Part shown: positions 4,140-19,523 of the stretch, piece after piece
How positions within the stretch are numbered: position 1 is the stretch's first letter
How the letters are laid out: every line of letters starts with the position of its first letter
Source: a virus
IMG/VR virus record: IMGVR_UViG_3300005253_000206
Span: 1 to 20,496 of that record
Direction: 5' to 3' (one strand)
DNA: 20,496 nucleotides
Made by a program: the position numbers and the translations under genes
The notes under the pieces: generated by a model
What the model saw: the letters and a program-made list of their open reading frames with translations, nothing else
Databases searched by the model: none
Told to the model about the DNA's origin: nothing

Positions 4140-5455
4140 GACGTGTTCGCCCGTTTCCAGGGGTACCTGAGATCATCACTCTGATCTTGCTGCTTGCATC
4201 TATACTGCTGCTTGCCACTGGATTGTGCTGGAGCGCCGAGCCGCTGACTTGCCGCGACGGAAAATGCCCGACAAGCCGTCCACAAGTTCATTCGTCAGCA
4301 CTTGTGTTTTTGTCGCATACCGATCATGAAGGACCAGGTTACTTCAGCGGGGTTCTTATCGACACGCCGCATAAGAATGACTTGATTCTGACTTGCGCTC
4401 ATGCTTTAGAGCACGCCGGCAATACGATGGCAATCTTTACTAATGGACAACGCGCCTGGGCGGATATTCTCGCCAAGGATCATTATCTAGATCTTGCGCT
4501 CTTGCAGGTTCGCAAGAGTAATCGCCAGAAGTTTAGTATTGCAAGAAATCGGCCTCCTCTCGGGGAGACTGTCGCGGGTTTTGGTTTCGGAGGCACGCAG
4601 AGGCACCGTGTATTATTGGGGGTGGTCACTCAGTATGAATGGCTAACTCCGAACATCGCTGAAGACACCTCGACAGACTGTTTTAGCTTTCGGGCTGCCG
4701 TTAAACCTGGGGACTCTGGCGGCCCAGTTCTGAATCGTAAGAGGCAGATCGTAGGTGTGATTTTGGGTGGCGGCAAAGAAGGGACTCATGCAATTGACTG
4801 CGTTCGTATCAATCAATTCCTAAATAACGCGCTACGCGATAAACAAGCGATAGGGACATCCAATCCGCAGCCGCCCTCGGCCCCCGTAGAATCACACGGC
4901 TCCGGCAGGCCGGGGGCGGCTATTCCTGATGTTGCTGAGCGGCTGCCGCTAGTGCCTATTGCGGCTATGGAACCTCAAGAAAATAATAGTGAACCTGAAA
5001 GAAAGAACGCTTCGCATGAAACGAGTATTCTAGGACAAATTGATTGGCTCAGCCTGGCGGTGCTTGGCGGCAAGGTAGCCGCCGGGACCGCTGGGGTAGT
5101 TGCAACTGGCGGTTCAAGCTGGGCTGCGTGGCTGGCTCTTCAGGCTGCGACAAAGCTCTACAAGCGGCGTCAGGTACGAAAGAGAGGCCAGGCTGCCACG
5201 GCGGCCGACTCCTTTTCGCCTATTGCCCGAGACGACACAGAAGCCAAGCAACTTCTACAACTTTCGCAACTCGAAGGACGCAGCCCGGTACATGACGCGA
5301 TTATCGGACGATTTGCGTATGACACCATTGACATGTTCCTCACGCAGAGTCCTAATGGATCTGCGGCGGATGCACTTAGGCAGTTGCGAATCAAACTCGA
5401 AAGCCGCTTTAATGAAGTAGCGCCTGCCGCTGTCTTCAAAGAGGAAGAGAAATGA
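4136..5455 (+). CDS. Secreted trypsin-like serine protease with C-terminal hydrophobic segment
   Basis: This 439-residue protein begins with a signal-like region (basic N-terminus, hydrophobic core at residues 13-31). Cysteines follow in LTCRDGKCPTS. The protease domain spans about residues 50-235: His89 in LTCAHALEH, Asp119 in HYLDLALLQV and Ser194 in KPGDSGGPVLN form a complete chymotrypsin/trypsin-type triad. A Pro-rich linker (about 243-300) leads to a Gly/Ala-rich hydrophobic stretch at about 304-340 followed by a basic LYKRRQVRKR, which would anchor the protein in the membrane with a cytoplasmic tail of roughly 95 residues. It is coupled by ATGA overlap to the hydrolase upstream and to a 47-residue membrane protein downstream. 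A secreted, apparently two-anchor S1 protease is unusual in a phage; roles in envelope breakdown, surface-receptor modification or processing of a phage protein are inferences. Confidence 0.85.
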   Translation: MRRVRPFPGVPEIITLILLLASILLLATGLCWSAEPLTCRDGKCPTSRPQVHSSALVFLSHTDHEGPGYFSGVLIDTPHKNDLILTCAHALEHAGNTMAIFTNGQRAWADILAKDHYLDLALLQVRKSNRQKFSIARNRPPLGETVAGFGFGGTQRHRVLLGVVTQYEWLTPNIAEDTSTDCFSFRAAVKPGDSGGPVLNRKRQIVGVILGGGKEGTHAIDCVRINQFLNNALRDKQAIGTSNPQPPSAPVESHGSGRPGAAIPDVAERLPLVPIAAMEPQENNSEPERKNASHETSILGQIDWLSLAVLGGKVAAGTAGVVATGGSSWAAWLALQAATKLYKRRQVRKRGQAATAADSFSPIARDDTEAKQLLQLSQLEGRSPVHDAIIGRFAYDTIDMFLTQSPNGSAADALRQLRIKLESRFNEVAPAAVFKEEEK

Positions 5456-6754: not shown

Positions 6755-7006
6755 GTGCGTATCTTGCTGTACGGGTTGTTGTTTGGCTCCGCTACGACAG
6801 TAGCAGGAACAACTCTCATGGAATCTAACGGGCTCGCCCAAGGAGGGGCGCTTTTTGTGCTTACAGGAACAGTAGCGTATCTGCTTGTCACGCAGCGGAT
6901 TGCCTTAATCGCATTTCTGAAGGCAATCAAAGAAGAGCGCGACGCTCATCAGAAAACGATTGAACGATTGTCCCAGTCGATCGAGACTATACTGAGGGAA
7001 CGATAA
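6755..7006 (+). CDS. Membrane protein with coiled-coil tail (holin-like size), 83 residues
   Basis: The start is GTG at 6755, preceded by AAGAGGTG. Residues 2-20 form a first hydrophobic segment, about 30-55 a second (GALFVLTGTVAYLLV, then a short QR break and IALIAFL), and residues 57-83 form a charged amphipathic helix with heptad character (KEERDAHQKTIERLSQSIET). Two membrane spans plus a short charged tail in under 100 residues is typical of phage holins and holin-like proteins, though XhlA-type proteins have the coil first. No family was recognised. Its stop lies one base before the next ATG, so it starts the downstream operon. Confidence 0.6.
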   Translation: MRILLYGLLFGSATTVAGTTLMESNGLAQGGALFVLTGTVAYLLVTQRIALIAFLKAIKEERDAHQKTIERLSQSIETILRER

Positions 7007-7007
7007 G

Positions 7008-7208
7008 ATGGACAAAAAGGTGTACTTAGTTCACGGAAATGACGAGTACCTGCTTGGTCTTGCTTGCGATATATTGGAAGGCCGGGATACTACCGCGGCA
7101 GGCGGGCCGGGTTTTTCTTTTGCGACAGCTATCGCTGAAATCGTTAACTCCTTCCTTGACGCTCCGTTTGAAGTTACCTCAGCCGAATTCAAAATTGAAG
7201 TAAGATAG
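7008..7208 (+). CDS. Hypothetical protein, 66 residues
   Basis: ATG at 7008 follows GAGGGAACGATAAG and lies directly after the preceding stop. The short soluble protein starts MDKKVYLVHGNDEYLLGLAC, has a Gly-rich centre (AAGGPGFSFATAI) and ends in acidic/hydrophobic residues. No motif or family was recognised. It sits in a tight gene string between a membrane protein and a coiled-coil protein. Confidence 0.55.
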   Translation: MDKKVYLVHGNDEYLLGLACDILEGRDTTAAGGPGFSFATAIAEIVNSFLDAPFEVTSAEFKIEVR

Positions 7209-7214
7209 AAGAGA

Positions 7215-7634
7215 ATGAAGAGACTCTTGAGAAAAATGTTTCGGCAGATTTTCGAGAAGGAATCCAAGGGGCTTAGGGTTTTCATTGGTATACTCGAAAG
7301 CGACTGCCTGAAGTTGCGGAGGGAAAGATCGGTACTCGAAAGCGACTGTCTGGAGTTGCGAGAGGAAGCAGAGAAATCCAAGGGGCTATTGAGAGCCAAG
7401 ATTTCTGTTCTTCGAGCTAAAGTTCAGGAATATGAAATAACATTTTCTGATCTCAAGAAGAATATTAAGTGGTACCGAGAGCAGATCATCAAGTACCAAA
7501 ATATCGTTTGCAAAGCTACGGATAGTTTCCGGGAGCTTACTGATCTTGATGGGGAGAAATTTGGGACTGATGCAAAAGCATCGCCTGCCATGAAGGCTAT
7601 CCTCAAATCCGTGGAGACTTATAATGGCTTTTGA
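7215..7634 (+). CDS. Coiled-coil protein with internal duplication, 139 residues
   Basis: ATG at 7215 follows AGAAGAGA. The N-terminus is strongly basic (MKRLLRKMFRQIFEKES); residues ~25-105 show continuous heptad-like Leu/Val/Ile spacing, so a long coiled coil is expected. Two adjacent 14-residue units (LESDCLKLRRERSV and LESDCLELREEAEK, about 27-54) reflect a 42-base DNA duplication, and the flanking ESKGL/KSKGL blocks are also repeated. The C-terminus ends DAKASPAMKAILKSVETYNGF. The stop overlaps the start of the ATPase gene by 11 bases. The function is unknown; the tight link to the Sak4-like ATPase could mean a role in DNA metabolism, but the basic N-terminal amphipathic helix could equally bind membrane. 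Confidence 0.65.
   Translation: MKRLLRKMFRQIFEKESKGLRVFIGILESDCLKLRRERSVLESDCLELREEAEKSKGLLRAKISVLRAKVQEYEITFSDLKKNIKWYREQIIKYQNIVCKATDSFRELTDLDGEKFGTDAKASPAMKAILKSVETYNGF
7291..7374 (+). repeat. Tandem 42-base duplication inside the coiled-coil gene
   Basis: Unit one starts at 7291 and unit two at 7333; both begin with the identical 16 bases TACTCGAAAGCGACTG and continue with few differences (CCTGAAGTTGCG versus TCTGGAGTTGCG) before diverging. The unit is 14 codons, exactly two heptads, so the frame and coil register are preserved. The 13-base word AATCCAAGGGGCT also flanks the pair at 7261-7273 and 7375-7387. Confidence 0.85.
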
Positions 7635-8400
7635 TCTAAGTTCGATCGGTAGCGGCTTCGGGATTCGTCCGCCACGTATGATTCTTCTCGGCACTGAGAA
7701 GATTGGCAAGTCGACTTTCGCTGCTTGCTTTCCTTCGCCATGTTTTATTCCGATCGCAGGCGAAGAAGGAATTGACGACCTTCCGGTTCAGCAGTTCCCT
7801 CCGAGCACCTGTTTCGCCGACGTGAAGTCCGCACTTCAGTCCCTCCTAGATGGCGAGCATGAGTTTCGGACTGTCGTTATTGATTCCGCTAGCACGCTAG
7901 AGCCGCTTGTCTGGAATGACGTACGGGCTCGCAACGAAGGCGCTTCGTCAATTGAGACTGTACTTGGCGGATACGGGAAGGGATACACTGAGTCTCTCAT
8001 GGAATGGGGGACTCTTACGCAGTATCTCGATGCCTTGCGAACGCACCGGAATATGGCTTCGATTATTGTTGGACATGTTATTATCCGGCAGTTCAACAAT
8101 CCCGAAGGGCCGGATTATGATCGGTACGTTGCCGACATCAATCAGAAGGCCGCGAACCTACTTTATCGCTGGGCTGACGCGATTGTCTTCGCGAATACAA
8201 AGGTCGTGGTCAAAGTAGAGAAAGCCGGATTCGGCAAGGAAACTGGCAAAGGTATGGACACCTCGGGCGGGCAGCGTTTCCTCTACACGCAGAAACGCCC
8301 AGCGCATCCCGGAGGCGGCCGAGGCGTATACGGTCGACTTCCTCATGAGCTTCCGTTCTCGTGGGAGCATTACCAAGCGGCCGTAGCTTCGGCCAAATAA
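7624..8400 (+). CDS. RecA-fold ATPase of the phage Sak4 / AAA_24 type, 258 residues
   Basis: Walker A is GTEKIGKST at residues 23-31 (ILLGTEKIGKSTFA) and Walker B ends in Asp87 (RTVVIDSAS). The GHVIIRQFNNPEGPDYDRY region around residues 140-160 and the ADAIVFAN segment fit phage AAA_24 proteins. Members of this group (Sak4) act as single-strand annealing or strand-exchange recombinases and are commonly found beside an SSB, as here: the next gene encodes a DUF669 SSB-like protein. The protein is soluble and cytosolic. The start at 7624 has GGAG upstream and overlaps the previous gene by 11 bases. The ATPase call is secure; recombinase activity is inferred from family and neighbour. Confidence 0.85.
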   Translation: MAFDLSSIGSGFGIRPPRMILLGTEKIGKSTFAACFPSPCFIPIAGEEGIDDLPVQQFPPSTCFADVKSALQSLLDGEHEFRTVVIDSASTLEPLVWNDVRARNEGASSIETVLGGYGKGYTESLMEWGTLTQYLDALRTHRNMASIIVGHVIIRQFNNPEGPDYDRYVADINQKAANLLYRWADAIVFANTKVVVKVEKAGFGKETGKGMDTSGGQRFLYTQKRPAHPGGGRGVYGRLPHELPFSWEHYQAAVASAK

Positions 8401-8435
8401 CCACACTTCATTCCTCTCTCAAGAAAGATTTTCTT

Positions 8436-9026
8436 ATGGCAGACCTGACTGGTTTTTTCGATGGACAAGGCTTCGACCCAGAGACTGCTCCGCCTGATGT
8501 TGTTCCTCCAGGCGATTACACCGTTCAGATTGACGCTTCTAGCATTAAGGAGACCAAAGCAAAGGACGGTCATTACATCGAGGTAGAAATGACAATTCTG
8601 GATGAATGCCCTTCTAAGGGGTGTAAGCTCTGGGATCGTCTCAATATCCATAACAAGAATCCAAAAACTGTCGAGATGGCCAAGCGTAGCCTCGGCGCTC
8701 TTAGTGTTGCGTCTAGTATTCCTGATTTGAAAGACACAGACATGCTCCTGCAAAAGGTTGTCATCGCCTGCGTCAAGGTCAAAGATGATCAGAATAACAT
8801 CCGAACATACAAGGTTGCTGGCCAGGCGCTAGTTGCCCCAACGCCTGCTGCATTTGCTCCTGCCGTTGCTCCTGCGGCCTCTCCCGCTATCGGAGTGGAA
8901 GCGTACACCCCGGCTCCTTTACCTACACATCAGCAGGCGCCTGCTGCGATCGTTCCTGCTACTGCACCTGACGCTGCGGCGGCTACGGCTCCAGGCGCTC
9001 CTGTTGCTCCATGGCTGAAGCCGTAG
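8436..9026 (+). CDS. DUF669-type SSB-like protein, 196 residues
   Basis: I chose the ATG at 8436 (MADLTGFFDGQGF) because the frame upstream overlaps the ATPase gene and DUF669 proteins start close to this motif. Residues 1-130 match the known pattern: an early acidic DGQGFDPETAPPDVVPPGDYTVQI, then a beta-rich core (HYIEVEMTIL, CKLWDRLNIHN, AKRSLGAL) and a strand KDDQNNIRTYKVAGQ. After that comes a ~60-residue Ala/Pro-rich, low-complexity linker ending APVAPWLKP, which may serve as a protein-interaction tail as in other SSBs, though it lacks an acidic tip. DUF669 proteins bind single-stranded DNA and travel with Sak4-like ATPases. The ribosome site (AAGAAAG, 12 bases upstream) is weak. Confidence 0.8.
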   Translation: MADLTGFFDGQGFDPETAPPDVVPPGDYTVQIDASSIKETKAKDGHYIEVEMTILDECPSKGCKLWDRLNIHNKNPKTVEMAKRSLGALSVASSIPDLKDTDMLLQKVVIACVKVKDDQNNIRTYKVAGQALVAPTPAAFAPAVAPAASPAIGVEAYTPAPLPTHQQAPAAIVPATAPDAAAATAPGAPVAPWLKP

Positions 9027-9048
9027 CGACTCCTCTATACTCGTTAAC

Positions 9049-9117
9049 CTCGCTCCCCTGGCCCCGCTGCCCATACGGAACCCCGCAGCCGGCTGGCCGG
9101 CGAGCTAGCGAGTTTTT
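9049..9117 (+). terminator. Possible rho-independent terminator or structured element
   Basis: In the 102-base gap after the DUF669 gene, CTCGCT (9049-9054) can pair with AGCGAG (9107-9112), which is followed directly by TTTTT (9113-9117). The long loop contains its own strong hairpin, GCCGGC-TG-GCCGGC (9088-9101). The arrangement resembles a terminator with a branched stem, but the outer stem is only six pairs, so confidence is low. Confidence 0.3.
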
Positions 9118-9128
9118 AAGAGAATCTC

Positions 9129-9527
9129 ATGACACCAGATCAGATCAACGCGTGCTTTGAGCTAGTAGCTGCATGTTTGCTGGCTGCGAACATTCACCGC
9201 CTGAAAGCAGACAAGCAAGTAAGAGGCGTATGCCTTGCTCCTATGATTTTCATGGTCTGCTGGGGCGTCTGGAATTGTTACTTCTATGCGGCCATAAATG
9301 TTCCGTGGTCATGGTTTGCGGGATTGCTATGTACAACTATCAACGCTATCTGGGTGGCGCAGATGCTCTATTACAATCATCAAGAAAGAAGAGAACATGA
9401 CAAGGGATCAGGAACTAAGGAATCTCGCCAGAAAGTTTGTTTGTGCGAAGGCTGCCGAGGAACAGGCAAAATCCACTCGTATAGTTGCCGAGAAAGCCAT
9501 CGCGAGTTTAATCGAAGGACCCGATAA
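9129..9527 (+). CDS. Three-span phage membrane protein, overlapping the next gene
   Basis: The ATG at 9129 follows AAGAGAATCTC. Residues ~6-23, 34-55 and 60-82 are hydrophobic. The body (TPDQINACFELVAACLLAAN, DKQVRGV, WGVWNCYFYAAINVPWSW, NAIWVAQMLYY) matches my memory of small phage/bacterial membrane proteins with the pattern DKQVRGVS...LWGxWNxYYYP...N..WV; these are about 90 residues long. Here, after YYNHQERRE (residue ~89), the frame continues 43 more codons through the start of the next gene in another frame, so the tail (including CLCEGCRGTGK) may be an accident of overlap. The function is unknown; it is odd to find a membrane protein between SSB and nuclease genes. Confidence 0.65.
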   Translation: MTPDQINACFELVAACLLAANIHRLKADKQVRGVCLAPMIFMVCWGVWNCYFYAAINVPWSWFAGLLCTTINAIWVAQMLYYNHQERREHDKGSGTKESRQKVCLCEGCRGTGKIHSYSCRESHREFNRRTR

Positions 9528-9828
9528 AGGGCAAAGAACCGAGACCCTTGAAGACGGTGTGAAGATCACCGTTAAACGCAGCCTAAGATACAAGGCAGAC
9601 CTTCAAGGGATCAAGGATGTATTCCTTTTAGTTGCAAAGCAGATTGGGGAAAGCGTCCAACCGCCAATCAAAGCCAAGACCACTCATACGCTTGACGAGG
9701 TGATGTATGAGTGGTACCAAAAGAATGTGCCCGAGATCTTTAAGTTAATTTCTCAGCACGTTGAAATTACGCCTGCCAAGGACGCTATCACCGTCAAGAT
9801 TCCTAAGGCAGGAGAGATTGATGGCTGA
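9397..9828 (+). CDS. Hypothetical phage protein in the recombination block, 143 residues
   Basis: I place the start at ATG 9397 (MTRDQELRNLARKF), preceded by AGAAGAGA; starting earlier would overlap the membrane gene even more. The first half is a charged helix (ARKFVCAKAAEEQAKSTRIVAEKAIASL), followed by short strands (GVKITVKRSLRYKAD) and further helices. This helix-then-strand layout resembles small phage proteins found beside exonucleases and SSBs, but I cannot name the family with confidence. Its stop overlaps the nuclease start by eight bases, so it is probably co-translated with the nuclease and could be its partner or inhibitor. Confidence 0.65.
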   Translation: MTRDQELRNLARKFVCAKAAEEQAKSTRIVAEKAIASLIEGPDKGQRTETLEDGVKITVKRSLRYKADLQGIKDVFLLVAKQIGESVQPPIKAKTTHTLDEVMYEWYQKNVPEIFKLISQHVEITPAKDAITVKIPKAGEIDG

Positions 9829-11143
9829 TCTCACGCCCTACCTCCCGGAGCTTTCCGAGACAGTAGAGAAAATCTACAAGCACTACAAGAAAACTGGAGA
9901 TACCGAATCGCCTCGGAAATATCTAGGCGCCTCGATTATCGGACACCATTGCGAGCGGTACCTCTGGTACAATTTCCGACAAACTACTAAGCCGGAATTC
10001 GATGGAAGAATGTATCGCCTATTTCAAACTGGCCACCTTGAAGAGGCTCGCATGGTCGAAGATCTACTAGATATAGGATGCGAGGTTCACGACATAGATC
10101 AAGACGGCAATCAGTTTGCGATCAGCGATCTTGGCGAGCACTTCTCGGGCCACATGGACGGCGTAGGTCTAGGTATTCCAGAAGCGCCGAAGACGTGGCA
10201 TGTTCTCGAATTCAAGACACATAATAACAAGTCTTTCGCCAAGCTCAAGAAGAGCGGAGTCAAGGATTTCAAGCCACAACACTATGCCCAGATGCAAGTC
10301 TACATGCACAAAACAGGCATGAAGCGGGCTTTATACATGGCAAAGGATAAGAACACGGACGAACTCTACACCGAACGGATTCGATACGACCAGGCATTCT
10401 GCGAGAACCTCATGGCTCGAGCAGAGCGGATTGTCTTCAATAATAAGCCACCAGAACGACCATATAGCCGAAGCGACTACTATCTCTGTTCATGGTGCGA
10501 TGCGCAGAAGATCTGCTGGGGGATCGGAGACACGGCATTGCCGATTACGGCTCCCTCTTGCCGGCAATGCTGCCACGCAACGCCAAAACTTGACGGCCAT
10601 GCACGGTGGCTCTGCACAAAGCATGAAAGATCATTATCCTCGCAAGATCAGGATACGACCTGTGATAAGCATCTGCTTCTTCCGGGAATGTTGTCGTTCG
10701 CCGAGCCAATAGGATGCGGACGAAACTTAGCAGACGACGATTATATTGTCTTTCAAAATACAGGAGATGAAGAGCCTCCCTGGAATCATGGAGCGCACGA
10801 TCGTGGCTTCTCAACTGCTGAACTCATGACGTTGCGCGTGGAAGACTTAACCAATGAGATGATCGTCGTCGCCAAGCAGGTCATGGGCGCCGTGGCCACG
10901 GATGCCTGCGATGATATCTTGAACCGCTATCCAGAAGAGGACACGCGTATCGTCTGGGAAGGGCATCAATCGGGTCTCGCAAACGAATGGCTCAACCGGT
11001 ATGGAGAGGATTTCTGGGCGATGAAACCGATTGATATCAGCCAGCTTCCTAATGATCGGAATATCGCCGAGTTTGAAGGCGGCCGGCTTGCGGTTGTATT
11101 ACTAAACGGGCATGGGGCACAAATTCGAGAGGGCGTAGAATGA
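9821..11143 (+). CDS. Cas4/RecB-like PD-(D/E)XK nuclease with Cys cluster and zinc-finger-like insert
   Basis: The start at 9821 (MADLTPYLPEL) is preceded by AAGGCAGGAGAG. The 440-residue protein shows the RecB-type nuclease motifs in order: GASIIGHHCERYLWY (residues 36-50, Cys44), GHMDGV with Asp113, LEFKT with Glu130 and Lys132, and QHYAQMQVYMHK (153-163). Cys44 together with Cys223, Cys226 and Cys232 (LCSWCDAQKICW) reproduces the four-cysteine pattern that holds an iron-sulphur cluster in Cas4 and AddB. A second cysteine set (Cys247, Cys250, Cys251, Cys265, His268) looks like a zinc finger, and about 170 further residues follow without recognised motifs. It likely resects DNA ends for the Sak4/SSB pair. 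The C-terminal extension makes it longer than a typical Cas4-like nuclease. Confidence 0.8.
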   Translation: MADLTPYLPELSETVEKIYKHYKKTGDTESPRKYLGASIIGHHCERYLWYNFRQTTKPEFDGRMYRLFQTGHLEEARMVEDLLDIGCEVHDIDQDGNQFAISDLGEHFSGHMDGVGLGIPEAPKTWHVLEFKTHNNKSFAKLKKSGVKDFKPQHYAQMQVYMHKTGMKRALYMAKDKNTDELYTERIRYDQAFCENLMARAERIVFNNKPPERPYSRSDYYLCSWCDAQKICWGIGDTALPITAPSCRQCCHATPKLDGHARWLCTKHERSLSSQDQDTTCDKHLLLPGMLSFAEPIGCGRNLADDDYIVFQNTGDEEPPWNHGAHDRGFSTAELMTLRVEDLTNEMIVVAKQVMGAVATDACDDILNRYPEEDTRIVWEGHQSGLANEWLNRYGEDFWAMKPIDISQLPNDRNIAEFEGGRLAVVLLNGHGAQIREGVE

Positions 11144-11304
11144 TAACGATCATTTACGCTTGCCCAATATGGTTCGAGTGGAGTCTCTTCGAGATAATTA
11201 ACGAGACATTGCCATTAGCTACTTTAAGGGCGTGCGATAGCGCTTGGCAAATGCACGTCAACAAGGACTTCATGACCATTTTTACAGTATATTGCACGCA
11301 ATGA
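11140..11304 (+). CDS. Small ORF, 54 residues, coupled on both sides
   Basis: ATG at 11140 overlaps the nuclease stop (TGA 11141-11143), and its own TGA (11302-11304) overlaps the helicase ATG at 11301, giving an ATGA junction at each end. The product (starts MITIIYACPIWFEWSLFEII) is hydrophobic/aromatic at its N-terminus, has three cysteines and no recognised motif. The double interlock is the main evidence that it is translated, and it explains why the helicase start lacks its own ribosome-binding site. It may be a small protein or mainly a coupling device. Confidence 0.55.
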   Translation: MITIIYACPIWFEWSLFEIINETLPLATLRACDSAWQMHVNKDFMTIFTVYCTQ

Positions 11305-12938
11305 TCCCTCGTCCTTATCAACAAGAAGCGCTAGATGCCTTGCATTTGCATGTCTGCACGAAAGAGACAAACCCTTGCGTAGTCATTCCAACAGGAGGAG
11401 GGAAAAGTGCCCTTATCGCCTGGATCGTCGGAAAGTGGAAATCTGAGTCCCCTCATGTGCGGATTATCATCCTGGCACATCGCAAGGAGCTTATCGAACA
11501 AAATGCAGCAGAGCTTCAAGGGATGTGCCCTGAGTTTCGTATTGGCATTTACTCAGCCGCTCTCGGACGCAGAGACTACGACGCAGACGTACTCTTCGCC
11601 TCTATTGACTCCATTTACAAGAGATCCGGGGATTTTCCTGCATGGGATGTTGCCATGGTCGATGAGGCGCATCGCATTCCTCCTAAAGGAGAAGGAAAGT
11701 ATAGAACTTTTCTACAAGGTTGTCGAAAGTGGAATCCAGCCCTCCGTGTTATCGGATGGACTGCCACCCCGTTCCGCATGGGTTACGGAGCGATCTGCCA
11801 CAAGGATCATCTCCTCAACGAGATTTGCTACGAAGCTAAAATCACTAGCCTTATCCACGATGGCTATCTGTGTAAGCTACGGTCGAAAGTCGGAGTTATC
11901 CAGCCAGAGCTAGGCGGAGTGAAACGCAACAGCGGAGGCGATTACATCACCAGATCCTTGTCGGCAGCGACGAACAAGAAGGTAATCGTTACTGAAGCAG
12001 TTGCTGAAGCTGTACGAATCATGAATGCCGAAAATCGCAAATCAGCAGTTTTCTTTTGTGTCGATGTAGATCATTGCAATAATGTTTCAAAAGAGTTGCA
12101 GCGACATGGAATACATGCACCAGCCATTACTGGCGGTACTAAACGTAAAATCCGAGAGCGTGCTGCGGATAATTTCAAAGCCGGGAAACTTCGTGCTATC
12201 TGTAATGTCAACGTCTATACCGAGGGATTTAACGCAACGATCATTGATTGTATTGTGCTACTTCGGCCTACTCTATCAGCCGGATTGTTCTCACAGATGG
12301 TCGGACGAGGGCTTCGATTACATAAACAAAAAAATGTATGTCTGGTTCTTGACTTCGCCTGCTGTATCGAAGAGCACGGGCCAATTGACATACTCGGCGG
12401 CGAGCCCATTGCCCTAGCTACGTGTGAGCTTTGCCGAGAATCTTTTTCACGGGCCATCGGTACTTGCCCGGCTTGCGGTTGGGTGATCCCTAAAATAGTC
12501 TTCGACAAGATGGAAGCAGCCGATTGCGAGAAACGATTGCACGAAACTAAAGTCTCACAACGATCAATCCTTTCTAATGTACCAGAAGTTCGTAATGTCC
12601 ATACTGTCTTTGCATCTCGGCATCGAAAGCTCGGTTTTCCAGACAGTCTGCGAGTCCAATACCGATGTGGAAAGAGCATGTTCTCGGAATGGGTTTGTCT
12701 CGACCATGAAGGCTACGCAGGAGAATGCGCTAGCAAGTGGTGGGCAAAGCGGTTCGGCCTCCATCAGGTAGCAGGCGGCAGCAGGCCGGCCACAGTCAAC
12801 GAAGCGCTCAATTACATGTTCCTAACGCAAGGAATAGCTGAGTACACAAAAACCATTTCCGTAAAGCGAAAAGGGAAGAACTGGGAAATTGTCGCATACA
12901 ATGAAGCAATTACCAAGACGGATGACGTGAGCGCATGA
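11301..12938 (+). CDS. SF2 DEAH-box helicase with C-terminal zinc finger, 545 residues
   Basis: With the start at ATG 11301 (MIPRPYQQEALDAL), the Q-motif-like RPYQQEA stands at the N-terminus as in UvrB/type-I-restriction-like SF2 enzymes. Motif I is PTGGGKS (residues 30-36), motif II DEAH (121-124), motif III TATP (154-157), and motif VI QMVGRGLR (332-339). A C-x2-C-x10-C-x2-C zinc finger (Cys375, 378, 389, 392) follows the helicase core, then ~150 residues of unknown fold. Such helicases in phage replication blocks are thought to unwind or remodel DNA at origins or recombination intermediates. It overlaps its neighbours by four bases at both ends, so it belongs to one coupled operon with nuclease and primase. 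Confidence 0.9.
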   Translation: MIPRPYQQEALDALHLHVCTKETNPCVVIPTGGGKSALIAWIVGKWKSESPHVRIIILAHRKELIEQNAAELQGMCPEFRIGIYSAALGRRDYDADVLFASIDSIYKRSGDFPAWDVAMVDEAHRIPPKGEGKYRTFLQGCRKWNPALRVIGWTATPFRMGYGAICHKDHLLNEICYEAKITSLIHDGYLCKLRSKVGVIQPELGGVKRNSGGDYITRSLSAATNKKVIVTEAVAEAVRIMNAENRKSAVFFCVDVDHCNNVSKELQRHGIHAPAITGGTKRKIRERAADNFKAGKLRAICNVNVYTEGFNATIIDCIVLLRPTLSAGLFSQMVGRGLRLHKQKNVCLVLDFACCIEEHGPIDILGGEPIALATCELCRESFSRAIGTCPACGWVIPKIVFDKMEAADCEKRLHETKVSQRSILSNVPEVRNVHTVFASRHRKLGFPDSLRVQYRCGKSMFSEWVCLDHEGYAGECASKWWAKRFGLHQVAGGSRPATVNEALNYMFLTQGIAEYTKTISVKRKGKNWEIVAYNEAITKTDDVSA

Positions 12939-15196
12939 AACAACTTTCAGATGCAGCAGCATGGTATGCCTCAGTTGGATGGCCAATCTTTCCGTGCAAG
13001 CCAGGCCAAAAAGTGCCAGCAACTGCTCATGGCGTCAAAGATGCAACCACCGATTCCTCTCAGATTAAGCAATGGTGGACAACAAACCCGAATTACAATA
13101 TCGGCTTCGCGTGCGGAGGGATCAGCAATCTCTACGTCGTCGATGTTGACTTGGACAACGAGAAGGGGCTCAATGGCTACGAGTCCCTGAAGGAGTTTCC
13201 GGAAATCCCGGTTACGGTCGTGCAGCGAACGCCGCGTGGGGGCCTCCATGCGTTCTACACGACGGATAATCCGCCAGCCAACAAAAACAACTTCCGCCAA
13301 GGCATCGACATACGCGGAAACGGCTACTATGTCATTCTCGCTCCCAGCATCCATCCTAACGGCAAGCAATATGACTGGGCACCAGGGCGTGCCCCGTGGG
13401 AGATTCATGCGAGTGAGTTCCCTGATGCCCTTAGACCTGCCTCTAAACTAGCCCCCGCGGTACCTGTCGTCATTCCGCCAGATGTTACGCATGAACTCTA
13501 CGATCAACGTATAGACCGCGCTAGCCTCTACCTGGCAACCGTCGATCCGGCTGTCCAAGGGGGGGGAGGGCACAGCACGCTCCTGCGGGCGGCCGGGTTC
13601 ATTATGCACGGCTTTCTTCTGAGCGACCAGGAGACGTTCAGCCTGCTTGCGACTGAGTACAATCCGCGGTGCGTCCCACCGTGGGACTTCAGCGTCCAGA
13701 AGGACGACCGAGACTTCCGCCGGAAGGTCAGCGAGGCCAGGAAGCATCCACCTAACAAGTCTTCGGGTTGGCTCTTGTATGACACTGCATTTGAGCCAGT
13801 TTTGCAGGCGAGCCCGGCGCTATCCGCGTCAATAGGGAAGCTGTGTACAGGCGTGGCCGAATCTGCTGCTGCCTCAAAAGTTCGCAAAAAGCCGAACTTC
13901 TTCCGGACCCGCCCCGCTCAATCAGAATTGGATTTCCTTACGGCGCCCATGGGTAAGCTTGGAGAACTCTGCGCTTGGATGAATGCAAATTCGATTCGGA
14001 AGCAGCCCTTCTTGACTCTTGGTTGCAACTTGGCGTTTCTCGGTGCGCTATTCGGTAGAAAGATTAAGAGCCACCGAGGGATGCGAACAAATATCTATTG
14101 CATGGGGGTCGCAGATTCTTCAGCGGGGAAAGCTCACGCGCAGAAAAGCATTCGGAAGCTTTGCGAGTTTGCGCAGATATCGAAACTGATTGGCGGAGAT
14201 GACATTGCTTCCGATTCAGCAATTCTGAAGCGGCTTTCCAGACAGGCGAACACAGTTTACTTACTCGACGAGATTGGGCATCTCTTGTCTGACATTAAGA
14301 GCGGAAACAATGTGTACGCCAAAAAGATCGTACCGTTGTTGATCAAGCTCTACAGCCATGCGGAAGATAAATACACGGCAAAAGACCTCGCCGACTCAGA
14401 GTTAGACCGTGAACTCATACAGCCATGCTGTTGCATCTGGGGCGTCTCAGAGCCGGATCGGTTCGCTGCCGGGCTGTCTCCCGAGGAGTTGCACGACGGG
14501 TGGCTATCTAGGTGCCTGGTGTTCCGGACTGACACGACGCCAGACAAAGAAGAGGACTTCACGGAGCCTAAACCTCCGATGGAGCTTGTCGAGTGGTGCC
14601 GGGCATGGTTCGATCGCGAAATTAGATGTCCAGACGAAGATGGTAATCTTCTGGAGTGGCAACGAGTCAGAGGATGGCAAGTAGATACTGTTGGGCCTCA
14701 TCAATTGGTCGTACCAAGCACCGACGAAGCGACGGCAATCTTCAAAATGCTTGACAGGTCCACCAAGAATATCGGGATTGAAAATTACGATCTAAGTCGC
14801 CTCTGGAAAAAGGCCGAAGAGAATGCGCGTCGTATTGCCTTGATTTATGCAGCGAGCATAAATTTCGATAATCCTGTGATTGATGCTGCCGTGGCCGATT
14901 ACGCATGTCGTCTGGTCGTCTACTTACTGCGTGATTTTGGCTATGCGACGGTTGGCCAAATAGCAGGCTCTGTGCTAGAAGAAAAGAAGAACCGATTGGA
15001 ACGTTACATTGCGCGTTCGGGGTACGGAGGCCGGATCAAGGGGCAGATTTCTCAAGGCTCGCCATGGCTTCGGATGAACGAGCGTGCCGAGTACCTCCTG
15101 GACCTAGCTGAGTCTGGTCGAATTATCGCCAGAGCGGTGGGCGAGAAGGTTGTCTATTGGACAGCAAAATTTGCACCGGAGGAGCTTGATGACTGA
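12935..15196 (+). CDS. Primase-polymerase fused to a helicase-like ATPase, 753 residues
   Basis: Residues 1-165 are a bifunctional primase-polymerase (Prim-Pol) domain: WPIFPCKPGQKVPAT, then the metal-binding VVDVDLD (Asp70, Asp72), RGGLHAFY with His105, and GIDIRGNGYYVILAPS (Asp125). A Gly/Ser linker region with short helices follows to ~330. From ~340 a P-loop-type ATPase begins: DSSAGKAHAQ (about 394-403) stands at the Walker A position and TVYLLDEIGH (440-449) at Walker B, followed by a DUF3987-like pattern (KIVPLLIKLYSHAEDKY). The residue after GK is Ala instead of Ser/Thr, which I believe occurs in this subgroup. The enzyme likely makes primers, and possibly longer products, while translocating on DNA. 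Start overlaps the SF2 helicase stop (ATGA). Confidence 0.88.
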   Translation: MKQLSDAAAWYASVGWPIFPCKPGQKVPATAHGVKDATTDSSQIKQWWTTNPNYNIGFACGGISNLYVVDVDLDNEKGLNGYESLKEFPEIPVTVVQRTPRGGLHAFYTTDNPPANKNNFRQGIDIRGNGYYVILAPSIHPNGKQYDWAPGRAPWEIHASEFPDALRPASKLAPAVPVVIPPDVTHELYDQRIDRASLYLATVDPAVQGGGGHSTLLRAAGFIMHGFLLSDQETFSLLATEYNPRCVPPWDFSVQKDDRDFRRKVSEARKHPPNKSSGWLLYDTAFEPVLQASPALSASIGKLCTGVAESAAASKVRKKPNFFRTRPAQSELDFLTAPMGKLGELCAWMNANSIRKQPFLTLGCNLAFLGALFGRKIKSHRGMRTNIYCMGVADSSAGKAHAQKSIRKLCEFAQISKLIGGDDIASDSAILKRLSRQANTVYLLDEIGHLLSDIKSGNNVYAKKIVPLLIKLYSHAEDKYTAKDLADSELDRELIQPCCCIWGVSEPDRFAAGLSPEELHDGWLSRCLVFRTDTTPDKEEDFTEPKPPMELVEWCRAWFDREIRCPDEDGNLLEWQRVRGWQVDTVGPHQLVVPSTDEATAIFKMLDRSTKNIGIENYDLSRLWKKAEENARRIALIYAASINFDNPVIDAAVADYACRLVVYLLRDFGYATVGQIAGSVLEEKKNRLERYIARSGYGGRIKGQISQGSPWLRMNERAEYLLDLAESGRIIARAVGEKVVYWTAKFAPEELDD

Positions 15197-15584
15197 TGAA
15201 TCCCTAGTTATCATCCTGCCGCTGCCGGCAAAAAATCTTCACCCGAATCATCCAATTGCGTCGATGAAAGGACGATTCGCGAAAGCTAGTGCGGCTAAGC
15301 GATACCGCAAGCTAGCCAGAGAGCATATTAGGCAAGAGGAGATTAGTTCGGCGCCATGGCCGCATATCGAGGTGCAAGTGACCTTCTATCACCCAACGAA
15401 ACGACGTAGGGATACTGACAACGCAATTGCCTCCATTAAGTCAGCCTATGATGGCATTGTCGACTCTGGGTTAGTTTCCGATGATACTCCCGAATACATG
15501 ACCCGCCGCGAGCCAGAATTCAAATTCGATCCTGAATTTCCTCGTATTGAATTTGTTCTCACGAGATTGGAGCGTCCTAAGTGA
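15189..15584 (+). CDS. rusA: RusA-like Holliday junction resolvase, 131 residues
   Basis: The ATG at 15189 is preceded by GGAGGAG and overlaps the primase stop by eight bases; starting further upstream would lie deep in the primase gene. The signature RusA segment is present at residues 73-100: RRDTDNAIASIKSAYDGIVD, with Asp75, Asp77, Asn78, Lys84 and Asp88, then SGLVSDD (Asp98/Asp99), which supply the metal-binding site. Its length (131) is close to that of Escherichia coli RusA (120). As a homodimeric endonuclease it would resolve four-way junctions formed during phage replication and recombination. It is coupled by a GTGA overlap to the regulator gene that follows. Confidence 0.92.
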   Translation: MTDESLVIILPLPAKNLHPNHPIASMKGRFAKASAAKRYRKLAREHIRQEEISSAPWPHIEVQVTFYHPTKRRRDTDNAIASIKSAYDGIVDSGLVSDDTPEYMTRREPEFKFDPEFPRIEFVLTRLERPK

Positions 15585-16123
15585 TTTCTATACAAAAAGA
15601 AGAACATATCCGTCGTCTTATCAATCAAGGCCAAACGGATAGCAAAATAGGACGCGATACAAACTCCGGACACGAAACCATCGAAAGGATTCGCAAGGCC
15701 ATGTCGCTCGCCCTGGCGTGCCCGTTGGGCATCCGTGAGAAGATTATTTTTCAGCTAATTGGCGGCTTCCCGATCAAGGTTGTTGCCGCGGACCTTCGCG
15801 TACGACTAGAAGTTGTTATGGCTGTCCAGAGGTATTGTTATATCCATACCCTGAAGGGTAATGAAAAAAAGATGGCTATCGTTTGTTCTGTATGCCGGAG
15901 AGACATTGAAGCAATGTACGAAAAACCTCCGCAAGTGTGCAAACGTATTAGCCTGAGAGATCTTGCATCTCATGCAGATACATTATACGACATAGCTTGT
16001 AACGTTGTTGACCTTAGTAACCTCGGAGTCATTGCAAGCCCGCTTTTTTGCGGAATTGCTTCCGGGGCTAGTGACATTCTTGAAGAAATTTCCGGAGGTA
16101 TCCATGACCAAAAAGAAAACTAG
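15581..16123 (+). CDS. Putative HTH DNA-binding protein with Cys motif, 180 residues
   Basis: The start is GTG at 15581, interlocked with the RusA stop. Residues 8-40 (EHIRRLINQGQTDSKIGRDT then SGHETIERIRKA) fit a helix-turn-helix of the homeodomain-like type, and residues 60-83 (GGFPIKVVAADLRVRLEVVM) could be a second one. Cys102, Cys105 and Cys120 (VCSVCRRDIE...PQVC) resemble part of a metal-binding site. The C-terminal ~50 residues are helical with hydrophobic patches. Its position after the replication genes suits a phage transcription regulator, but no specific family was recognised. It overlaps the next gene by 20 bases. Confidence 0.6.
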   Translation: MISIQKEEHIRRLINQGQTDSKIGRDTNSGHETIERIRKAMSLALACPLGIREKIIFQLIGGFPIKVVAADLRVRLEVVMAVQRYCYIHTLKGNEKKMAIVCSVCRRDIEAMYEKPPQVCKRISLRDLASHADTLYDIACNVVDLSNLGVIASPLFCGIASGASDILEEISGGIHDQKEN

Positions 16124-16352
16124 ACGAAGCGCTTCCGATATTGTCAAGGGGTCAATGCAGTCTAAGTGGAAGTGGTTTGATCGCCTTTCAAAGGAAGATC
16201 TGAATTACATTCAGGATATTGCTCATCAATTGCGGCTTCAACCCGGGGCGTCGATTTCTGTCGTTGCTCGCAAGCTCAGGGAAGAGCTTGATCTCTCTGT
16301 CCACGAAAACAGTGTTGCTCGCAAATTAAAGGAGCTAGTTAATGCCCCGTAA
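16104..16352 (+). CDS. Small basic protein, possible winged-helix/HTH, 82 residues
   Basis: ATG at 16104 has a strong GGAGGT seven bases upstream, which decides the start although the frame is open further upstream inside the previous gene. The N-terminus is highly basic (MTKKKTRRSASDIVKG). The second half, SISVVARKLREELDLSVHENSVARKLKEL (about residues 49-79), reads as a helix-turn-helix-like segment. A DNA-binding role is plausible; no family was recognised. It overlaps the phosphoesterase gene by 11 bases. Both this protein and the next have a similar N-terminal block (DIVKGSM / DLIKGAV after a basic stretch), which may be a shared short motif. Confidence 0.6.
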   Translation: MTKKKTRRSASDIVKGSMQSKWKWFDRLSKEDLNYIQDIAHQLRLQPGASISVVARKLREELDLSVHENSVARKLKELVNAP

Positions 16353-17409
16353 GAAAAATCCGAAAGACCTAATCAAAGGCGCAGTAGCCGAAAGCCACGA
16401 TCTGGAACTCGCTAAAGCGAAGACTGAAGCTGCAAAATGGCGGAGGCAATGCAAGGAGGCAACCAAAACAGCAGTAGAGATGGAGGCCCGCGCTGATATG
16501 CTTGTAGGTCTTCCGGATATGCCCTCTATTCAGAAATTCAAGCCGTCCAAGAAGGCGAAGGCAGGAACTGTAGCTGCCGTAGTGCCGGCCTCGGACTGGC
16601 ATGTTGAAGAGCGAGTATTCTGGGCTTCAGTTAGTGGTAAGAATCGTTTCAATCTTAGAATAGCCGAGGCGCGTATTAAGACCTTTTACCAAAAGGTCTT
16701 GGAAATGATTGAGTGGCAAAATTATCAAGCACCAGTCAGCGAAATCTGGTACCCACAGCTTGGGGATCTGCTTAGCGGGTACATTCACGAGGAGCTTCTG
16801 GAAACTAACACGCTCTCGCCGACTGAGGCGTGCGTTTTCCTACAGGAAATGATCTGCTCAGGAATCGACCTCTGGCTTAGGGAAACAAAACTCCCGATTT
16901 ACATTCCCACTTGTTGCGGCAATCATGCCCGCACGACAGCTAAAAAGCGAATTAAGACTAACCACAGAAATAGTTTCGAGTGGTTGCTCTATATGACTCT
17001 GGCTAAGTATTATGCCTCAGAACCCCGCGTTACCTGGCTGATTGGGGAAGGTTATTGGAATATCCAGACTATTATGGGTCGTAAGGTGCGATTTCATCAT
17101 GGTGATGGCTTACGATTTCTTGGCGGCGTCGGTGGAATTACAATTCCAGTCAACAAGGCGATCGACAAGTGGCAGAAAATTACAGCCTGCGACTTTGATA
17201 TTTTCGGACACTGGCATCAGTACCTTTACCACTATCCATCGTGGGTTAGTTGCGGTTGCTTAATTGGCTACAGTGAGTACGCGCTTGAGGTTTGTAAGGC
17301 AGAATTTCAGCATCCGACTCAGACGTTTATCGTTATCGACCGCGGGCTCGGCATCTCGCTTTGCACTCCTATCTATCTAGAAAAACCCAAGAGAGGACGA
17401 AAGAAATGA
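16342..17409 (+). CDS. Calcineurin-like metallophosphoesterase, 355 residues
   Basis: ATG at 16342 is preceded by AAAGGAG. After a basic, coiled-coil-like N-terminus (about 1-70), the five metallophosphoesterase motifs appear in order: SDWHVEE (Asp85, His87), LGDLLSG (Asp141), GNHART (Asn193, His194), HHGDGL (His252) and GHWHQY (His289, His291). These residues build the two-metal site. Similar phage enzymes include SbcD/Mre11-type nucleases and nucleotide phosphatases; no SbcC-like partner is seen here, so nuclease activity is only one option. It sits between DNA-binding proteins and nucleotide-metabolism genes, and its stop interlocks with the next ATG. Confidence 0.88.
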   Translation: MPRKKNPKDLIKGAVAESHDLELAKAKTEAAKWRRQCKEATKTAVEMEARADMLVGLPDMPSIQKFKPSKKAKAGTVAAVVPASDWHVEERVFWASVSGKNRFNLRIAEARIKTFYQKVLEMIEWQNYQAPVSEIWYPQLGDLLSGYIHEELLETNTLSPTEACVFLQEMICSGIDLWLRETKLPIYIPTCCGNHARTTAKKRIKTNHRNSFEWLLYMTLAKYYASEPRVTWLIGEGYWNIQTIMGRKVRFHHGDGLRFLGGVGGITIPVNKAIDKWQKITACDFDIFGHWHQYLYHYPSWVSCGCLIGYSEYALEVCKAEFQHPTQTFIVIDRGLGISLCTPIYLEKPKRGRKK

Positions 17410-17546
17410 AAGATGGCTGCGAATGCTGCGAAGCTCATTTTGGCGAGTATCATGCAAATTGGTGTGAATGCAAACCGAATGTTAGGATCGGTAGCGCACT
17501 GGAAGAATTTGTACATAAGCAATGGATGGAGGATCCAGACGAATGA
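17406..17546 (+). CDS. Cysteine-rich small protein, 46 residues
   Basis: ATG at 17406 overlaps the phosphoesterase stop (ATGA), and its TGA overlaps the following ATG at 17543. Within the first 22 residues (MKDGCECCEAHFGEYHANWC) there are four cysteines and two histidines, with one more cysteine at residue 22 (CEC), a pattern that could bind zinc. The C-terminus is acidic (WMEDPDE). The function is unknown. Confidence 0.55.
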   Translation: MKDGCECCEAHFGEYHANWCECKPNVRIGSALEEFVHKQWMEDPDE

Positions 17547-17602
17547 AGAATCAATTAGTGGCAGCTGACTACCTTGAATCTTATAAGAAGGTGAAGAAAT
17601 GA
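17543..17602 (+). CDS. Possible 19-residue micro-ORF linking two genes
   Basis: A 19-codon frame (MKNQLVAADYLESYKKVKK) starts at 17543, its ATG interlocked with the preceding stop, and ends with a TGA at 17600-17602 interlocked with the ATG at 17599. The frame covers exactly the space between the two larger genes and contains the ribosome site (GAAGGTGAAGAA) of the next. It may be a translated coupling peptide; chance cannot be excluded at this length. Confidence 0.3.
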   Translation: MKNQLVAADYLESYKKVKK

Positions 17603-18033
17603 GCGACAAGATGCGAACTTTTGATTCTGGTGCAACCCGTAATGTTGATGACGAAAAAATTGATTACGAAGGTTTCCTTAGTCCGTGGGTGATCAGAAGA
17701 TACGGAAATTACATGCACAGCCACCGCATCCAAGCAGACGGGAAGGTCCGGGATTCTGATAACTGGCAGCGCGGATTGCCGCCTGACGTATACATAAAAT
17801 CCCTACTCCGCCACGCGCTAGACGCCTGGTCAATTTGCCGTGGCCTTCGCACGTTTGACACGAAGGATGGTCACGAAGTAGACATCGAAGAAGCACTTTG
17901 TGGTATTATTTTCAACGCTTCCGGATACCTCCACGAGCACCTAAAGGCGAAAGAGGAGCAAAAAAATGCCGACATCACTGTTATGAAAGCGATAGATAAA
18001 ACACTTAATGATTTCACAGGAGGTCTTCAATGA
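17599..18033 (+). CDS. DUF5664-type (MazG-like) nucleotide pyrophosphohydrolase, 144 residues
   Basis: The protein matches a phage family I know as DUF5664, described as the dATP/dGTP diphosphohydrolase N-terminal domain: TFDSGATRN, KIDYEGFLSPWVIRRYGNYM, a long loop ending NWQRGLPPDVY, then the helices KSLLRHALDAWSICRG (68-83) and EEALCGIIFNASGYLHEHL (97-115). These helices carry the acidic and His residues of an all-alpha pyrophosphohydrolase. In cyanophage S-2L a related enzyme, MazZ, works in 2-aminoadenine synthesis, but many family members occur without that pathway and no PurZ-like gene is in this window. Pruning of the nucleotide pool is the safest inference. GAAGGTGAAGAA precedes the start. 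Confidence 0.65.
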   Translation: MSDKMRTFDSGATRNVDDEKIDYEGFLSPWVIRRYGNYMHSHRIQADGKVRDSDNWQRGLPPDVYIKSLLRHALDAWSICRGLRTFDTKDGHEVDIEEALCGIIFNASGYLHEHLKAKEEQKNADITVMKAIDKTLNDFTGGLQ

Positions 18034-18629
18034 AACCACCTAAAATAATCTTCCTTGACGTAGACGATACGCTGAACCGTTTCACAATGTCGGCTCTTAG
18101 CTTCCTCGGCTGCGACGTGAACCCCTTTAATGAAAGCCAATATGATCCCGCCTGGGAATACGATCTCGCCACCGCGGTTACAGCCCTGCTTCCTGGTGTC
18201 AGCATTCCCGAAGAAACTTTTTGGAACAGGTTCCCTCGTAACTTCTGGGCTAATATTCCAATTTCCGCTGAGTGCGGTTGGCTCCTGACGACTTGCAGCA
18301 AACTTGTCGGGAAGAGCAACATATGCCTGCTTACGAAACCATCGGGAGAGAACGATTGTCTTGCGGGCAAGGCCGATTGGATTCAGAGGTCCATGCCGGG
18401 TTGGCTTCACGACCAATATCTGATAGGAGCCCCAAAGTATTTTTGCGCTAACGAGCGATCGCTCCTGATCGACGACTCCGAGCGCAACATCTCGGCGTTT
18501 GCAAGAAATGGCGGGCAGACCATCTTAGTTCCAAGGCCCTGGAATCCGCTTCACAAGACGATCAATACCGTAGGATATATTGCCTCCAAGTTAGAGCGAA
18601 TCTTCGACACAGATATTGCGATACCGTGA
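18030..18629 (+). CDS. HAD-family 5'(3')-deoxyribonucleotidase-like phosphatase, 199 residues
   Basis: ATG at 18030 follows GGAGGT and interlocks with the previous stop. HAD motif I is FLDVDDTLN (Asp10, Asp12, Thr14), motif II is the LLTKPSG threonine region (about residues 99-105), the conserved Lys lies in GKADWIQ, and motif III is LLIDDSERN with its Asp pair. The overall layout, with a short helical cap after motif I, resembles NT5C-type deoxyribonucleotidases, which remove phosphate from dNMPs. Directly coupled to the pyrophosphohydrolase gene, it could act in sequence: dNTP to dNMP, then dNMP to nucleoside. The specific substrate is not determined by what is visible. Confidence 0.8.
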   Translation: MKPPKIIFLDVDDTLNRFTMSALSFLGCDVNPFNESQYDPAWEYDLATAVTALLPGVSIPEETFWNRFPRNFWANIPISAECGWLLTTCSKLVGKSNICLLTKPSGENDCLAGKADWIQRSMPGWLHDQYLIGAPKYFCANERSLLIDDSERNISAFARNGGQTILVPRPWNPLHKTINTVGYIASKLERIFDTDIAIP

Positions 18630-18650: not shown

Positions 18651-19523
18651 GTGAACAAACACAAACTAATCTGCACTGACTGGCTCGACGGTATTCAAGT
18701 TGCCGGCGACGATTACTACGCCGTTGCCTTTGCCGATCCGCCAGACAACATTGGGGTAAAGTACGACGGATATGATGACAATCTTCCTGCGAAAGAGTAT
18801 TTCAGCCTGCTATCCAAGTGGGTACGGAAGCTCGTCGAGGTTGCAGGCATTACCTGGTTTAGCTATAACGCTAAGTGGGCTGCTGAAGTCGGAACGATCG
18901 TGAATTTTCTAGTCCATTCAACTCCTGGGCTAGAGAAAAGACACATGGTCCAGACCTACACGTTTTACCAACATAACCAGCATGACCTCGGAAATGGCCA
19001 CCGGCCTATCTGGCGGCTTCGCTGGCGCGATGCGCCATTGTACCCCAACCAGATCCGCGTCGAGTCTGAGCGGCAGAAGAGCGGGGACAAGAGAGCCGAT
19101 CCAAGAGGCAAGGTGCCTTCCGATTGCTTCGATTTCCCACGCGTCACGGGCAACAGCCGCCAGCGTAGGTCATGGAGCCCTACCCAGCTACATGAGGGAT
19201 TGATCGAGCGGTGCGTGAAGTTAAGCACCAAAGAAGGGGATCGAGTCCTAGATCCGTTCGGGGGTACAGGAAGTATTTTGAGAGTGTGCCGACGAATTAA
19301 CCGAGTTAGCACTACCTTCGAGATTTCTCCCGCGTACAGCAAGCTCATAGCTAACGACAATGCCATGGCGGCTGTAGACATAATTTCGCCCTCGACTTTT
19401 CTCCGTTGCCGAACCTGCCGAGCTAAGATGGTAAAATTGCACGAGAGCTACGTTTCCTGCGTGGAGGGCTGTAACAAGGTTATACCGCTCCAGGATCAAA
19501 CGTCCTGCTACGTTCTAGACTAG
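18651..19523 (+). CDS. DNA methyltransferase (N6-A/N4-C type, beta order) with C-terminal zinc ribbon
   Basis: GTG at 18651 is the only suitable start after the previous stop; the ribosome site is weak. Catalytic motif IV is ADPPDN (Asp29-Pro-Pro-Asp32), where most amino-methyltransferases have DPPY. The SAM-binding motif I is LDPFGGTGS at 200-208, after the SPTQLHEGLIERCVKL segment (176-191); this order (IV before I) defines the beta group. The region DFPRVTGNSRQRRSW is typical of the family. The C-terminus carries C-x2-C and C-x3-C (Cys253, 256, 270, 274), a probable zinc ribbon. No restriction endonuclease lies beside it, so it is probably an orphan protecting phage DNA. Target base and sequence are unknown. 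Confidence 0.85.
   Translation: MNKHKLICTDWLDGIQVAGDDYYAVAFADPPDNIGVKYDGYDDNLPAKEYFSLLSKWVRKLVEVAGITWFSYNAKWAAEVGTIVNFLVHSTPGLEKRHMVQTYTFYQHNQHDLGNGHRPIWRLRWRDAPLYPNQIRVESERQKSGDKRADPRGKVPSDCFDFPRVTGNSRQRRSWSPTQLHEGLIERCVKLSTKEGDRVLDPFGGTGSILRVCRRINRVSTTFEISPAYSKLIANDNAMAAVDIISPSTFLRCRTCRAKMVKLHESYVSCVEGCNKVIPLQDQTSCYVLD

Follow-up and report, generated by a model that had tools for sequence, protein, structure and literature searches.

The polymerase of phage NrS-1 is described as the one DNA polymerase which this phage possesses, and as being helped by a phage-encoded helicase and a single-strand DNA-binding protein (SSB) (PMC7102993). Similarly, the PrimPol of cyanophage S-2L is presented as the sole possible polymerase of its virus (PMC8065100), and both enzymes are covered by a review (PMC8775771). 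In BcMCM, a protein of a Bacillus cereus prophage, an AEP domain is fused to an MCM-type helicase and helicase, primase and polymerase activities are reported; the same source describes gp43 of Corynephage BFK20, a phage protein of the Prim-Pol clade which we liken by its description to the protein studied here, as a primase and polymerase that uses dNTPs only (PMC4538821). Use of a host polymerase is also an option, as discussed for the polymerase-less cyanopodoviruses, for which the candidates considered are Pol I or Pol III of the host and a polymerase not yet recognised (PMC9860041). On the recombination side, the gene for Sak4 of phage HK620 adjoins that of a DUF669 SSB, whose C-terminal tail, NDYPPF, is reported to be needed to stimulate Sak4 (PMC5928155), and Escherichia coli RadD is reported to bind the C-terminus of SSB (PMC10238739). 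The genes of these two kinds of apparatus occur together in Pseudoalteromonas phage vB_PspS-H40/1, which encodes a Sak4-like NTPase, a DUF669 protein, a Cas4 protein, a helicase, a resolvase and a Prim-Pol protein; both this phage and the related case of Pseudoalteromonas phage C7 possess a Prim-Pol and no family A, B or C polymerase.

The stretch of DNA analysed here (the window) is an entire virus record of 20,496 bases, which carries a comparable set of genes in a single co-oriented string at 7624-15584. The first is a Sak4-like RecA-fold ATPase, a putative single-strand annealing recombinase (7624-8400, + strand; PF13479, E 1.9e-34; phrog_124, E 7.5e-26), followed by a DUF669 SSB (8436-9026, +; PF05037, E 1.3e-10; phrog_6015, 'single strand DNA binding protein', E 1.4e-24). 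A small DUF7173-like protein (9397-9828, +; phrog_2480, E 5.2e-5), whose match to PF23791 (E 8.4e-4) lies under the Pfam cut-off at 19.8 versus 27 bits, precedes a Cas4-domain exonuclease of the PD-(D/E)XK type (9821-11143, +; phrog_1990, E 1.8e-102). Next comes an SF2 helicase/translocase (11244-12938, +; PF04851, PF00271; phrog_16, E 9.2e-86) for which RadD is the nearest NCBIfam model (NF053632, E 1.4e-71); as its 241.5 bits fail the equivalog cut-off of 720, its sequence makes it RadD-like only. The Prim-Pol fusion (12935-15196, +; PF09250, E 2.1e-38; PF13148, E 0.0015) overlaps the helicase gene by 4 bases, the junction reading ATGA, and is followed by a RusA-like Holliday junction resolvase (15186-15584, +; phrog_34, E 2.2e-21) that scores above the PF05866 cut-off (E 2e-5; 25.6 versus 22.8 bits). 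Thus, the six genes named in the initial annotation are all present on the + strand, and the DUF7173-like gene is an addition to them. The string resembles that of H40/1 in content and differs from it in arrangement, the Prim-Pol of H40/1 opening the string and that of the window lying between helicase and resolvase; the Prim-Pol identity to H40/1 and C7 is about 25%, and that of Cas4 37-38%.

Related loci were gathered by profile and protein searches of viral contigs and bacterial genomes. They comprise 92 rows, from which we derived a non-redundant set of 66 distinct Prim-Pol ORFs, while several of the counts use redundant loci. An SF2 gene lies upstream on the same strand in 64 of the 66 distinct ORFs, a Cas4 gene precedes the SF2 gene in 58/66, and RusA lies downstream in 46/66; a DUF7173-like gene adjoins 39/66. 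The gene order of the window is kept in 34 of the 36 loci that possess all six genes. Since the SF2 neighbour recurs in this way and the order is so rarely altered, the string is not a chance assembly but a module that a phage lineage has conserved. The spacing of helicase and Prim-Pol is -4 in 21/88 rows, a count that uses mechanical start codons and redundant loci. A calcineurin-like phosphoesterase/exonuclease gene (16342-17409, +; phrog_284, E 7.4e-32), found 3' of the module in some relatives, adjoins 17 of the 66 distinct Prim-Pol ORFs; its product contains what we take to be metallophosphatase motifs, which were recognised by eye. The large genes common to six whole relatives are those of the module, a terminase, tail-fibre-like proteins and structural-cluster proteins of 778 and 580 residues. 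A 35-base direct repeat (7291-7367, copies 86% alike, spacing 42) is found inside a coiled-coil-like ORF just 5' of the module; it is the clearest pair in a search of 7000-17600 for an origin, in which direct repeats were few, and no origin is proposed.

The SSBs of this family share a C-terminal feature, with [PVL]W occurring within the last 8 residues in 41/48. Hence most end in a PPW-type tip, which differs from the NDYPPF terminus described for HK620 (PMC5928155). Three SSB relatives (L132, L054 and L110) have GIPF or NVPF at the terminus, resembling the tips of bacterial SSBs.

To delineate the fusion protein we combined an AlphaFold2 model of the whole chain (mean pLDDT 89.0, pTM 0.61) with an alignment of 51 sequences, namely the window and 50 relatives out of 53 full-length sequences (L039, L055 and L057 were left out by hand). 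Secondary structure in the model was read as giving, in order, a Prim-Pol domain (~1-168), a helix bundle (~186-290), an AAA+ ATPase of the DUF3987 type (~330-674) and a winged-helix-like region (~680-745), both the limits and the winged-helix label being such a reading. The window matches PF09250 with 132.7 bits against a cut-off of 22.8, and all 51 aligned sequences match it at E 0.01 or better. In the Prim-Pol domain D70 and D72 are invariant (51/51), H105 is kept in 50/51 and D125 in 49/51, with E in the other two; by the published meaning of the DhD, xH and D motifs (PMC5862659, PMC8065100), the catalytic triad is intact. Structural searches with Foldseek matched the Prim-Pol part of the model to pRN1 ORF904 (E 6.0e-7) and to NrS-1 N300 (E 5.6e-5), indicating that the N-terminal part has a predicted AEP fold. 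The ATPase part is likewise conserved, the Walker-A K399, D445, E446 and R526 being invariant in 51/51. The Walker-A lysine usually precedes Ser or Thr; here the motif reads SSAGK and then Ala, Asn or Asp in most members, with Ser/Thr at residue 400 in only 4/51.

The intact triad and ATPase across the family are among the grounds on which the Prim-Pol fusion might be taken as the replicase of the phage, a reading that we consider possible but unlikely. According to it, the fusion would both prime and extend the whole genome, and its own ring helicase, together with the SSB and the RadD-like helicase, would complete the replisome. The predicted likeness to NrS-1 N300 and pRN1 ORF904 is consistent with this, as is a TP-x-GG-x-H loop in the Prim-Pol domain, which lacks zinc-finger cysteines (CxxC in 1/51) and is comparable to the serine loop described for NrS-1 (PMC8718748). 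The NrS-1 polymerase and S-2L PrimPol, which have a similar general layout, polymerise in vitro and have been proposed as replicases. The window further encodes an SSB and a helicase alongside the fusion, as described for NrS-1 (PMC7102993), and the reported neighbours of S-2L PrimPol include an SF2 helicase, an annealing protein and nucleases (PMC8065100). In NrS-1, too, Prim-Pol, helix bundle and ATPase/helicase lie in one chain, the ring being predicted in the present case; its helicase is described as SF3-like with a novel head and tail (PMC7102993), whereas the best matches of the window's ATPase are to MCM. Activity has been measured for NrS-1, whereas the fusion of the window is known from its sequence and a model. 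S-2L PrimPol differs in that it is described as having PriCT-2 and a VirE-matching C-terminus and as belonging to an All3500-like family (PMC8065100); purZ and datZ, the 2-aminoadenine genes that are a trait of S-2L, were not found among the window proteins scanned. Arguing against the fusion as replicase are the results that Pfam and PHROGs profiles revealed no proofreading exonuclease domain in the module, and that homologues coexist with family A polymerases in other phages (see below), so that a Prim-Pol need not be the replicase.

The ATPase part was compared with known structures using the whole model, and aligned with MCM helicases with a Z of 18.9 over 267 residues (rmsd 3.3-3.4). The C-terminal half folded alone (pLDDT 90.3, pTM 0.89) recovered the same MCM match. 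The best 50 structure matches listed for each model were all of the MCM type, a result with which an SF3-like helicase is still compatible; structures of the NrS-1 C-terminal ring were not among the matches listed, which is no sign of a difference. An assignment to MCM by sequence was ruled out, as the MCM profile PF00493 was silent in all 23 records (0/23) even at E 10 and matched all 14 control genomes. In this the family differs from BcMCM, which is described as an MCM homologue detected with BLAST (PMC4538821). A profile of three sequences, searched against solved structures, likewise returned no MCM; its matches were weak ones to pRN1 ORF904 (E 0.04 and 0.08) and four at chance level. DUF3987 itself (PF13148) reaches 18.2 bits in the window against a cut-off of 27, and matches 46 of the 51 aligned members at E 0.01 or better (best 6.6e-54). 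Thus, the ATPase is MCM-like in its predicted fold only and not an MCM by sequence. DUF3987 has been predicted to be a helicase in PMC5862659; no assignment to MCM was seen there, though the literature may hold one. We regard the MCM-like assignment of the DUF3987-type domain, resting as it does on models, as the one modest addition.

The initial annotation had pointed to Prim-Pol as the only polymerase visible in the string, and named a conventional polymerase elsewhere in the genome as the counter-evidence. A profile search of the 20,496-base record found no family A, B or C polymerase. This says little, since the record is probably a fragment of a phage genome: the ORF at 1-3300 is open at the left end, which suggests that the record is cut there (this ORF matches the virion structural protein family phrog_22602, E 3.5e-38). 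The search was therefore moved to relatives and spanned 39 records, namely the window, 22 close relatives (G002 and G018-G038) and 16 comparators. Prim-Pol was detected in 23/23 of the window and its close relatives, and a family A, B or C polymerase in none (0/23). When the ends of 14 close relatives were examined, exact terminal repeats of 114-144 bases were found in seven, a repeat of 22 bases in one and none in six; on account of the longer repeats at least seven relatives, of about 50-53 kb, are apparently complete genomes. In one of these terminally redundant genomes (G018), PHROGs yielded no polymerase among the 20 ORFs of at least 250 residues outside the main module. Hence, the claim that a conventional polymerase is missing is true of the record and also of apparently complete relatives, in which Prim-Pol is the only polymerase-like protein found, a result that is itself in keeping with Prim-Pol as replicase.

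A phage polymerase might still have been missed, either because it lies in an unsequenced part or because it is too divergent for the profiles used. The open end of the window would leave room for it; PF03175, the profile for protein-primed family B enzymes, was silent, but equally so in the controls, so that this search carries no weight; and conserved proteins of 778 and 580 residues, together with one of 684 residues whose cluster is present in 5/6 genomes, lack any Pfam domain at E 0.01. Against this stand the 0/22 result for close relatives, seven of them apparently complete, and the position of the large shared unassigned proteins of G018 in a structural cluster that also contains the genes for terminase, head and tail. 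An absence that extends through a syntenic lineage is unlikely to result from a missing contig end, and we consider a missed polymerase very improbable.

The comparators and described phages bear on what the absence means. Ten of the 16 comparator records have Prim-Pol and five have an above-cut-off family A polymerase; weak matches below the cut-off were obtained to family A in G040 and G041 and to family B in G012. Three Cas4 phages (G013, G016 and G017) have a family A polymerase without Prim-Pol, which suggested mutual exclusion of the two. This idea was dropped, as the metagenomic records G044 and G046 have both, the family A matches being above the cut-off. Moraxella phage Mcat17, whose Cas4 protein is 47.6% identical to that of the window, has neither Prim-Pol nor a family A, B or C polymerase. 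Thus, the partner of these related recombination neighbourhoods varies: it may be a family A polymerase or Prim-Pol, or both may be missing. Of 50,697 phage records, 657 contain a homologue of the window's Prim-Pol domain. A set of 16 described Prim-Pol phages was hand-picked from the homologue matches plus S-2L and is not a random sample; 13 of them lack a polymerase of family A, B or C and three have one of family A (Arthrobacter phage Makoto, Microbacterium phage Rasovi and Vibrio phage 69E27.1). Prim-Pol without a conventional polymerase is accordingly a real but common and ordinary pattern, already published for several phages.

Taken with the premise that no conventional polymerase is present, which holds, this comparative evidence bears on the alternative left by the initial annotation, that the fusion is the main replicase or that the phage borrows the host polymerase. 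It leans towards the host, although neither option is provable from sequence. On balance, we favour as the probable arrangement that the fusion acts as initiator, primase and helicase, with a host replicase carrying out the bulk of synthesis. We prefer this because Prim-Pol coexists with family A polymerases in some phages (G044, G046 and 3/16 of the described ones), because the related neighbourhood of Mcat17 has neither type of enzyme, and because of the lack of an identified proofreading domain. Judged from Mcat17, a neighbourhood of this kind can work on the host polymerase. Speaking against the host replicase are the NrS-1 and S-2L precedents, and there is no positive sign of recruitment: a clamp-binding-like motif, which would point to recruitment of host Pol III, is conserved in none of the eight module proteins (at most 5/44, in Sak4), which weakens this reading a little.

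From the observed gene content, order and conservation, the intact catalytic residues, the predicted folds and the failure to detect polymerases of families A, B and C in relatives that are apparently complete, we infer the following activities for a host-dependent system. The string would constitute a recombination-coupled replication module, in which the Prim-Pol fusion might be a self-loading initiator whose winged helix picks the site. Its AAA+ part would form a ring responsible for DNA opening and unwinding, and a DNA primer would be laid down by the Prim-Pol domain together with the helix bundle. The bulk of the DNA would then be made by a replicase recruited from the host, most likely Pol III, while Sak4, the DUF669 SSB, the Cas4-type exonuclease, the RadD-like translocase and RusA could process ends, anneal strands and resolve junctions, giving rise to concatemers.

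As for the host, 15 of 23 matches in bacterial genomes are titled Planctomycetota, as counted from the titles. A 13.7-kb contig binned as Planctomycetaceae (L110) carries the whole six-gene module, with a Prim-Pol at 35%. Planctomycetota are thus a possible lead to the host, and L110 may be misbinned. At the right end of the window, on the opposite strand, lies a serine recombinase gene (19567-20370, - strand; phrog_95, E 7.1e-44), an observation that also concerns L204 2522-3460 and L238; G018 carries the phrog_95 serine recombinase family as well as a second integrase family (phrog_1). These families in the window and G018 suggest that the lineage is temperate. Other genes of the window include those for a trypsin-like serine protease with a long C-terminal part (4136-5455; PF13365, E 2.1e-17), adjoined by an alpha/beta-hydrolase-like gene (3516-4139), a deoxyribonucleotidase-like protein (18030-18629; phrog_2643, E 6.1e-10) and an N4/N6 DNA methyltransferase (18651-19523; PF01555, E 4.9e-23).

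At its boldest, the fusion as replicase would mean that members of a widespread uncultured phage lineage of about 50 kb, possibly with Planctomycetota as hosts, replicate their whole genome by means of one trifunctional protein that unites Prim-Pol, helix bundle and a ring helicase resembling MCM, the winged helix serving as site reader. Neither a family A, B or C polymerase nor proofreading would be involved, and the RadD-like helicase and the SSB would form the rest of the replisome; we regard this larger proposal as rather doubtful. The MCM-like fold, if confirmed, would give the DUF3987-type ATPase a concrete mechanism. More generally, a conventional polymerase is missing across a whole syntenic phage lineage, beyond the one fragment, and this lineage is naturally suited to testing whether the Prim-Pols of phages act as replicases or serve solely as primases.
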